Source of the DNA: Arthrobacter sp. NicSoilC5
GTDB lineage: Bacteria; Actinomycetota; Actinomycetes; Actinomycetales; Micrococcaceae
Reading direction: 5' to 3'
DNA length: 64,000 nucleotides
Assembly (NCBI RefSeq): GCF_019977395.1
Contig: NZ_AP024660.1
Location: 3,224,001 to 3,288,000 of the forward strand
The notes under the pieces are model-generated. The model made no database searches. It was given only the letters and a program-made list of their open reading frames with translations, and was not told the origin of the DNA. The position numbers and the translations under genes were made by a program. The stretch's first letter is position 1. The number at the start of each line of letters is the position of its first letter. Below, in pieces: positions 30,789 to 32,591 of this stretch.

Positions 30789-31406
30789 TCAGGATTCCTT
30801 GACGATGATGCTGCCTACCTGGGTGGCCACCCGCCGCATGTCCTTGGTGACCTCCACCAGCTGGTTGGCGATGTCCCGGTTGCGGGAGTACTGGGCCCAC
30901 TTCATGTCCGCGATCATGTCCGCCACCCAGACGCGGTGGGTCCGTTCTGCCCGTTTGGCGAGGCGCAGGATCTCGATCCAGTAGTCCTCGAGGTCATCCA
31001 GGTCATTGAGCCTGCGCATGGCGTCAACGGTCAGTTCGGCCTGCCTGCTGATGATCTCCAGCTGGTCTGCGGCGCGCTTCGGGAGGCGGTCCAGCCGGTA
31101 GAGGGCCACCAGCTCTGCCGCGGCGTCCATCTTTTCCATGGCTTCGTTGAGGTACCGGGAGAGGGCGTACATGTCCTCGCGGGGCAGGGGATTCACAAAG
31201 CTGGTGCGCATGTGCGTCAGCAGCGCGAAATGCAGTTCGGCGGACTTGGCCTCGATGTTGTGCATGTCCTCAACGAGCTTGCCGTGCTCGTCCGCGGGTA
31301 CGCCAAGGATCTCGGCCAGGGTGGCGGTGGCCAGCACGATCTGTTGTGCCATCTGTGAGAGCAGGTTCAGCCCTGCGGGCTCCTGTGGAAAAAGGCGCAG
31401 CTTCAC
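30789..31406 (-). CDS. DUF47 family protein (PhoU-like Pit accessory protein)
   Basis: All-helical PhoU-related protein of 205 residues, with segments such as LLSQMAQQIVLATATLAEIL and MHNIEAKSAELHFALLTHM. DUF47 genes are typically found upstream of pit and are thought to modulate the transporter; here the stop is one base before the pit start. The GTG start follows GGAGA. It provides a PhoU-like function next to the low-affinity system, while pstSCAB in this window has no adjacent phoU. Confidence 0.88.
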   Translation of the reverse strand: MKLRLFPQEPAGLNLLSQMAQQIVLATATLAEILGVPADEHGKLVEDMHNIEAKSAELHFALLTHMRTSFVNPLPREDMYALSRYLNEAMEKMDAAAELVALYRLDRLPKRAADQLEIISRQAELTVDAMRRLNDLDDLEDYWIEILRLAKRAERTHRVWVADMIADMKWAQYSRNRDIANQLVEVTKDMRRVATQVGSIIVKES

Positions 31407-31536: not shown

Positions 31537-31626
31537 AAAAATGGTGCCGAACCGGATACGCCTCTCGGCGGTAGGCCGCTCTAGGCGGCTAATTGTTGAA
31601 GCCCGGGGGTTTCGCGGCTCGGCACC
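31537..31626 (-). ncRNA. candidate small RNA, ~90 nt
   Basis: On the minus strand GGTGCCGA (31626-31619) pairs with TCGGCACC (31550-31543), closing a ~75-base interior. The closing stem is followed by ATTTTT (31542-31537), a terminator-like tail. The interior has GCCGC/GCGGC with a 5-base loop, and CGCC-GAGA-GGCG, a stem capped by a GNRA tetraloop on this strand only. TTGACT, a 17-base spacer and AAGACT end 6 bases before the first paired base. I recognise no known RNA family: it is not a tRNA, and the 6C motif is absent. No gene of plausible composition covers it. Confidence 0.55.
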
Positions 31627-31632
31627 GGTTTC

Positions 31633-31661
31633 AGTCTTCTACTTCACCCGGCCCAAGTCAA
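31633..31661 (-). promoter_or_regulatory. promoter of candidate small RNA
   Basis: On the minus strand, TTGACT (31661-31656), exactly 17 bases, then AAGACT (31638-31633). The predicted start (31626) coincides with the first base of the closing stem. The -35 lies inside GTCAA-TC-TTGAC, an inverted repeat (31657-31668) that could be an operator. Confidence 0.5.
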
Positions 31662-31720
31662 TCTTGACAGCGGGGGCTTGGTTCGTCCCGGAAATCCGGT
31701 CCGCCGGGGGAAAAGACGCC

Positions 31721-32380
31721 TCAGTCCAGTTCGCCCAGGCGCCACGCGTTGGCCGCGTGTTCAAGGTCCTCGGCGGTCTTGACCAGCTGGTGGGAGTTGC
31801 GGGTCAGTTTGCTGGCGTGGGCCTCGTTGGCATGCTCGGCGCCGTCGGCGAGGGTGGCCTGGCCGAGCGCCACCACGCGGCAGAAGGCGGCGGAACGTTC
31901 CAGCGCGACGTCGAAATCGCCGTCGAACGCGCCGGAAAGGATGGCGTCCGCCATGGTGCGCATTTCGTCGGCGCCGGGCGGCTCAGCCGCGCCGGCCACC
32001 ACGTTGGATACCTGGGCGGTGTCCCTGCCCGCGCGGAAGTAGACGCTGATGCGTTCGGGGTCCTGGACGGTGGCGGCACGCAGTGCGTAGAGCCGCCAGA
32101 GGGCGCCGGGAAGGGAGCGGGCAGGGCTCTCCGCCCACATCTCGGCGATGGCGTCCAGGCCCTGTTCGTCCGCGAGCTTCACCAGGCGTTCGGTGATCAC
32201 CGGATCGTCGCTGTCGCGGCCATGGCGGACCAGGGCCTGCGCGGCAAGGTGGGCAGCCTCTGATACCCGGGCGGGATCGGCACCGCCTGCGAAGGGCTCG
32301 AAATCCATCGGAGCGAAGGGCTTGGGCTTATGGTGCCGGTTGCTGCCGCCGTACGGAGTTGTTCCTGCTTGCTCGCTCAT
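31721..32380 (-). CDS. conserved-type hypothetical protein, 219 aa
   Basis: Begins MSEQAGTTPYGGSNRHHKPKPFAPMDFEPF, then an Ala/Glu/Arg-rich helical body (VSEAAHLAAQALVRHGRDSDD, ALWRLYALRAATVQDPERIS). No signal peptide, no membrane helix and no motif I can name. TAGCGT lies 7 bases before ATG 32380 on the minus strand, so the mRNA is probably leaderless; a GTG at 32389 is the alternative start. It stands alone between the small-RNA candidate and tRNA-Lys. Confidence 0.75.
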   Translation of the reverse strand: MSEQAGTTPYGGSNRHHKPKPFAPMDFEPFAGGADPARVSEAAHLAAQALVRHGRDSDDPVITERLVKLADEQGLDAIAEMWAESPARSLPGALWRLYALRAATVQDPERISVYFRAGRDTAQVSNVVAGAAEPPGADEMRTMADAILSGAFDGDFDVALERSAAFCRVVALGQATLADGAEHANEAHASKLTRNSHQLVKTAEDLEHAANAWRLGELD

Positions 32381-32591
32381 GCCCCCCACGCTACTCCTGT
32401 GCCACAGCGGAAATCGAGCGTCCGCGGGGCTTGTCCGGTGACGGCGGCAGGGGCCCGGACCGCGGGGTGAAAACGTACGACGGCGGCGCCCGGGGCGTGT
32501 GCGAAGTGTCCGGAACCATGGGTTAGAGTATTAACGTCCAGAAATGGATTGGGCCGTACGGGCAAAACACAGCGTGTTTGGCCGGCGGCAG

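Follow-up and report, generated by a model that had tools for sequence, protein, structure and literature searches.

A stretch of about 90 nt on the minus strand of the window (the 64,000 nucleotides of Arthrobacter sp. NicSoilC5 DNA analysed here) very probably constitutes a genuine small-RNA gene. Sequence comparison indicates that it belongs to an RNA family present across much of the class Actinomycetes, in both soil and host-associated bacteria. The initial annotation had proposed a self-contained minus-strand gene of no known RNA family; 35 genus loci and covariance models back that proposal, which had understated the case. No general sRNA chaperone is known to be established for this class, and the RNA offers a testable way into post-transcriptional control in Actinomycetes. 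It may also connect such control with the redox sigma factors found in mycobacteria and in antibiotic producers.

Promoter, RNA and U-tract in the window and its genus

The promoter with its spacing, the six-base gap, the 8-base closing helix, the ATTTTT run and the inner stems all lie where the initial annotation had placed them (Table 1). A 17-nt spacer separates the -35 from the -10, six bases lead from the -10 to the start of the closing helix P1, and the outer eight bases of P1, GGTGCCGA (31626-31619), are complementary to TCGGCACC (31550-31543). The -35 does lie within a GTCAA/TTGAC inverted repeat, as had been noted; this palindrome is absent from all five other-genus loci examined. The covariance model R1, described below, matches 31626-31543 on the minus strand at 101.7 bits, against 24.4 bits on the opposite strand. 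The U-tract following P1 is not general outside the genus.

Table 1. Predicted elements of the small-RNA locus, in window coordinates, with the comparative evidence bearing on each
Feature	Position	Strand	Evidence
Predicted small RNA, P1 to U-tract, ~90 nt	31537..31626	-	97.5% identity across genus loci
P1, 5' strand	31615..31626	-	12 pairs with 31554-31543; both-side changes in 11/12 pairs (n=64)
P1, 3' strand	31543..31554	-	Covariation in 64 sequences
C-rich single strand CCCCCGGGCTTCA	31597..31609	-	Many columns invariant or nearly so in the unfitted alignment (A1); consensus in the fitted alignment (A3)
HP1, hairpin GCCGC/GCGGC	31575..31589	-	Cells paired 99.7%; C-G to U-A at one pair in 15/64
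HP2, hairpin CGCC-GAGA-GGCG, GNRA loop	31559..31570	-	Cells paired 99.6%
U-tract ATTTTT 3' of P1, probable terminator	31537..31542	-	94.1% genus identity; GGCACC-N-TTTT in 33/35
-35 TTGACT	31656..31661	-	Inside 15-nt block of 92.0% identity
-10 AAGACT	31633..31638	-	Inside block of 86.9% identity
Palindrome GTCAA-N2-TTGAC overlapping the -35, possible regulator site	31657..31668	-	35/35 genus loci
Neighbour gene, uncharacterised 222-aa protein	31721..32389	-	RNA-linked in many lineages

A strict promoter scan did not flag the promoter of this unit, whose -10 carries, by our own count, three of the six consensus letters where the scan needs four, and a strict terminator scan, which permits loops of 3-8, did not flag its terminator. 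The case for an RNA gene therefore stands on comparison. The genus set comprised 35 of the 36 loci recovered by blastn, the window's own included and one left out, and identities are means of the 34 other loci against the window. Mean identity is 47.8% over the 25 nt before the palindrome, 92.0% over the palindrome and -35, 64.5% in the promoter spacer, 86.9% from about 31641 to P1, 97.5% over the RNA with 94.1% in the six-nt U-tract, and 55.8% over the 30 nt that follow. Conservation that sets in with the palindrome and -35, weakens across the spacer and is lost beyond the U-tract is the pattern of one predicted transcription unit.

Conserved fold and phyletic distribution

The predicted conserved fold consists of the 12-pair helix P1 closing a junction that contains a C-rich unpaired segment, the hairpin HP1, and the hairpin HP2 with a mostly GNRA loop (GAGA, GTGA or GCGA in 55 of 64 sequences). 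A 92-nt stretch of the window folds at -43.5 kcal/mol; its shuffled versions give -29.15 (sd 3.43), and none of 200 does as well (z -4.18). The optimum fold of the single sequence retains P1 and pairs the HP1 region differently, without the GCCGC/GCGGC hairpin, so that the evidence for HP1 is comparative.

That evidence was drawn largely from an alignment of 64 sequences (A3), which had been fitted to the structure of R1 and is biased toward it. Here, 98.2% of cells are paired against 85.7 when shuffled, 158 cells are changed on both sides against 32.1 (sd 5.5) in shuffles, and the covariation score reaches 0.411, compared with 0.154 for shuffled and 0.041-0.105 for slid versions; none of 500 shuffles was as high on any of five measures. 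Changes on both sides affect 15 of the 21 pairs. The initial annotation had named stem-breaking substitutions in relatives as the outcome that would speak against the RNA; the opposite was found, with compensation in all but one pair of the closing stem (Table 1). In an unfitted alignment of 20 sequences (A1), both-side changes occur in 5 of 21 pairs, all within P1, HP1 and HP2 are wholly invariant, and the measure of further pair types is indistinct from controls (89 of 500 shuffles equally high). Taken together, the genus footprint and the covariation back the strand, closing helix, hairpins, GNRA loop, promoter and U-tract of the original description. Unit length is 80-89 nt in 62 of the 64 sequences. 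Longer copies, in which HP1 is swapped for a larger hairpin, were seen in locus L130 (3001-3109) and twice in L131 (3001-3115 and 4175-4296), and several genomes of family f37 carry both the usual and the longer form.

Blastn recovered the RNA from 36 of the 37 genus genomes, counting the source genome itself, and from 9 of the 22 other genomes of the order. The model R1, built from 20 sequences, matched 244 of 248 genomes across the order, usually at a single place. Of the four genomes without a match, two belong to one genus and measure 0.8-0.9 Mb, and two are 75-76% complete. Across the class, R1 matched 151 of 246 genomes at E<=0.1, and a second model built from 64 matches (R2) matched 161 at E<=0.01, leaving 85 without a match. 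In a sample of the phylum, R2 matched 22 of 296 genomes, every one within Actinomycetes, where four of the eight genomes of family f22 had no match. Four misses from the class are listed ahead of other classes, so that about 270 genomes of other classes, by our own count among the misses listed, are without a match under the stricter filters of these large scans, in which weak matches are lost. Most genomes have a single copy, and from this distribution we infer that inheritance has been largely vertical. Members of family f14 (G049, G067, G083, G113, G127 and others) carry two to four copies, most other genomes one. In one f22 locus (L108), WhiB and helix-turn-helix proteins are encoded near the RNA.

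Relation to known RNAs and promoters in relatives

Rfam 15, applied at gathering score to 30 loci, returned only tRNAs and no family at the RNA. When the threshold was relaxed to E<=10, isrK alone overlapped the RNA in the window; at 12.7 bits, where gathering requires 50, and on the opposite strand, it is not credible. At that same threshold the Streptomyces locus L113 yielded nothing beyond weak chance matches. The initial statement that no known family could be assigned thus held for the window and for all 30 loci. A description as a class-wide RNA family was not found in open-access literature text; the excerpted text of a GC-IGR survey of 50 genomes includes S. avermitilis, and the RNA may be among the unnamed material of that survey. 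A structured RNA carried by nearly every genome of its order, yet unmatched by Rfam 15 in the scanned loci, represents a basic annotation gap.

Among characterized RNAs, 6S and Ms1, which are decoys for RNA polymerase, are likewise widespread small RNAs of bacteria or actinobacteria. Both differ in length, at about 160 nt or more in the excerpted text of PMC9130861, from the conserved unit described here, whose ends are predicted. The same excerpt places Ms1 of S. coelicolor (~230 nt) between sco3558 and sco3559, neighbours that differ from the helicase and malic enzyme flanking this RNA in Streptomyces. The 6C RNA (RF01066) is likewise small and actinobacterial with C-rich unpaired parts, and takes its name, as excerpted from PMC4046766, from two stem-loops with C runs. 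The Rfam searches of the window and 30 loci gave no 6C match at the RNA; 6C matches in G328, G505 and G443 (the last just under the cut-off) lie at other places, and G000 has only weak 6C matches away from it.

A scan of named genomes with a pattern that includes GGAAT-N17-19-GTT returned at least 119 stretches, of which 80 were examined. The 80 matches listed come from Streptomyces and relatives, Mycobacterium, Mycolicibacterium, Nocardia, Rhodococcus and Antrihabitans, and 56 of them carry the Streptomyces-type RNA; an L113-related helicase lies upstream in 54 of these 56 and malic enzyme downstream in 49. A terminator-like hairpin with a T-rich tail follows in 45 of the 55 Streptomyces-type loci with enough sequence, a count without shuffled control. 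These flanks point to the SCO2952-SCO2951 interval, SCO2952 presumably being the helicase, and hence to scr2952, a transcript without known function with which the RNA is possibly identical. In excerpts of the respective papers, SCO2951 is a malic enzyme (PMC7244524), scr numbers are taken from a flanking gene (PMC3765725), and scr2952 is counted among 11 expression-confirmed sRNAs and among five conserved in more than half of the tested Streptomyces (PMC8388888). The likeness is one of flanks, drawn from neighbours in other Streptomyces rather than from the scr2952 or S. coelicolor sequence. According to the excerpted PMC8388888, scr2952 has an Rfam entry, whereas L113-L115 were matched by no Rfam family, which is a point against identity. 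The excerpts make no mention of a class-wide distribution for scr2952. The Rfam entry RF02827, considered as a candidate for scr2952, is Scr6106 and is located elsewhere.

The promoters of relatives fall into more than one type. Among 71 upstream regions, nine, the window's among them, have TTGAC 35-37 nt ahead of P1, and an ECF-type motif, GGAA[TC]-N15-19-GTT within 35 nt upstream, occurs in 27, in 22 of which it ends 7-14 nt before P1; mononucleotide shuffles give a mean of 0.2 and a maximum of 2. The motif is absent from the other 44 regions, and these counts are non-independent, the loci being related. Spacers among the 80 matches listed above are of 18 (44), 19 (35) and 17 (1), within a pattern that allowed 17 to 19 only, and the excerpted PMC9205884 quotes SigR promoters as GGAAT-N18-19-GTT. 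That SigR-type sequence precedes the RNA in Streptomyces and Mycobacteriaceae relatives, though not in every one, and has no counterpart in the window, which has TTGAC at the -35 instead. Neither SCO2951 nor SCO2952 is named in the main text of PMC9205884.

Mode of action and neighbouring genes

We give about an even chance to the reading in which the RNA is a noncoding, structured Actinomycetes sRNA that acts in trans, its C-rich strand pairing with G-rich stretches of mRNAs. On comparative evidence it has the features of a trans-acting sRNA, namely its own promoter and terminator and no fixed downstream gene; the lack of fixed downstream genes makes cis-control unlikely, and trans action would be the most likely mode, with mRNA pairing our first choice and protein binding a close second. 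P1 and the hairpins would keep the C-rich strand CCCCGGGNYYCA, the best conserved of the unpaired parts, open as a working surface, which would pair with short G-rich stretches of several mRNAs, in the manner in which other C-rich actinobacterial sRNAs are thought to act. In Streptomyces and Mycobacteriaceae the RNA would probably be made under thiol-oxidative stress via SigR/SigH-type sigma factors; in the window's own genus a housekeeping-type promoter with the added palindrome would drive it. A search of 31 genus genomes for a perfect 12-nt complement of the C-rich strand gave 49 further hits, and the reversed pattern gave 37 (our own sums, with one hit per genome set aside as the RNA gene itself). 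This weighs against a single long, fixed target but does not bear on short seeds.

Protein binding is a tentative but serious alternative: the RNA would act mainly within an RNP, or as a decoy like 6S or Ms1, and the adjacent 222-aa protein, where present, would be its partner or the controller of that partner. Sequence conservation in unpaired parts and loops, together with the lack of a conserved long antisense partner, is consistent with this, as is the distribution of the neighbour gene. A relative of that gene occurs in 43 of 71 loci, mostly directly adjoining the RNA; this set is not quite identical to the 71 promoter regions, and its 3-kb loci may hide a neighbour. Across the class the gene is present in 76 of 246 genomes, all 76 of which carry the RNA (Fisher p 3e-18, kinship ignored). 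By our own reading, it lies within 1 kb of the RNA in 56 of these and at about 2-5 kb in 10; in the remaining 10 it is farther off, on other contigs or, in G286, not locatable. Adjacency survives a reversed orientation in L038 and L141, and in family f4 two reduced genomes without the RNA also lack the gene, which four other f4 genomes have. Against a general partnership, 85 of the 161 RNA-positive class genomes, including every f37 genome, are without the gene, G241 (75% complete) has it with no RNA detected, and vertical inheritance alone could explain its nestedness among RNA carriers. The 222-aa protein itself has no Pfam or NCBIfam match, and its closest named relatives are from Pseudarthrobacter and Arthrobacter. 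The modelled structure consists entirely of helices (mean pLDDT 78). Solved structures gave no match to it by fold at E<=0.001 and none by sequence at E<=1, and RNA binding is therefore not indicated. Some UniRef entries of the family are labelled as RNA polymerase subunit.

A bolder form of the protein-binding reading, which we think doubtful, is a housekeeping-grade, class-level RNP of the RNA with a dedicated 222-aa helical protein in about half of the carriers, under SigR/SigH-type stress control in several families. If true, its reach inside Actinomycetes would be comparable to that of 6S or tmRNA in bacteria.

A role in cis, as leader or attenuator of the pit operon that follows, is very improbable for the RNA. 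The operon lies on the same strand, 130 nt downstream in the window; for its two genes, clustering ORFs recur in 18 and 20 of the loci compared, and in 8 of 15 loci direct matches to the pair follow the RNA. Nevertheless, the RNA occurs elsewhere with different neighbours, on which ground a pit-operon partnership as a rule was rejected; within the genus, the operon begins anywhere between about 160 and 1100 nt away, and the RNA is followed by a U-tract or, in Streptomyces, by the terminator-like hairpin. Of the DUF47-pit label given initially, the pit part stands (PF01384); the protein at 30789-31406, labelled DUF47, precedes pit but has no Pfam match at E<=0.001.

It is equally improbable that the RNA is a 3'-UTR product of the 222-aa gene with no gene of its own: although it often follows that gene closely in the same orientation, it has its own conserved promoter block in the genus, L038 and L141 have the two on opposite strands, and the Streptomyces RNA, without the 222-aa gene, has a SigR-type motif in front. 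A small ORF, or chance inverted repeats in GC-rich DNA, we consider negligible: stems are cheap at high GC and some start codon occurs in 56 of the 64 sequences, but no frame is open in all 64 and none in more than 47, other classes sampled gave no match, and covariation exceeds both shuffled and slid controls.
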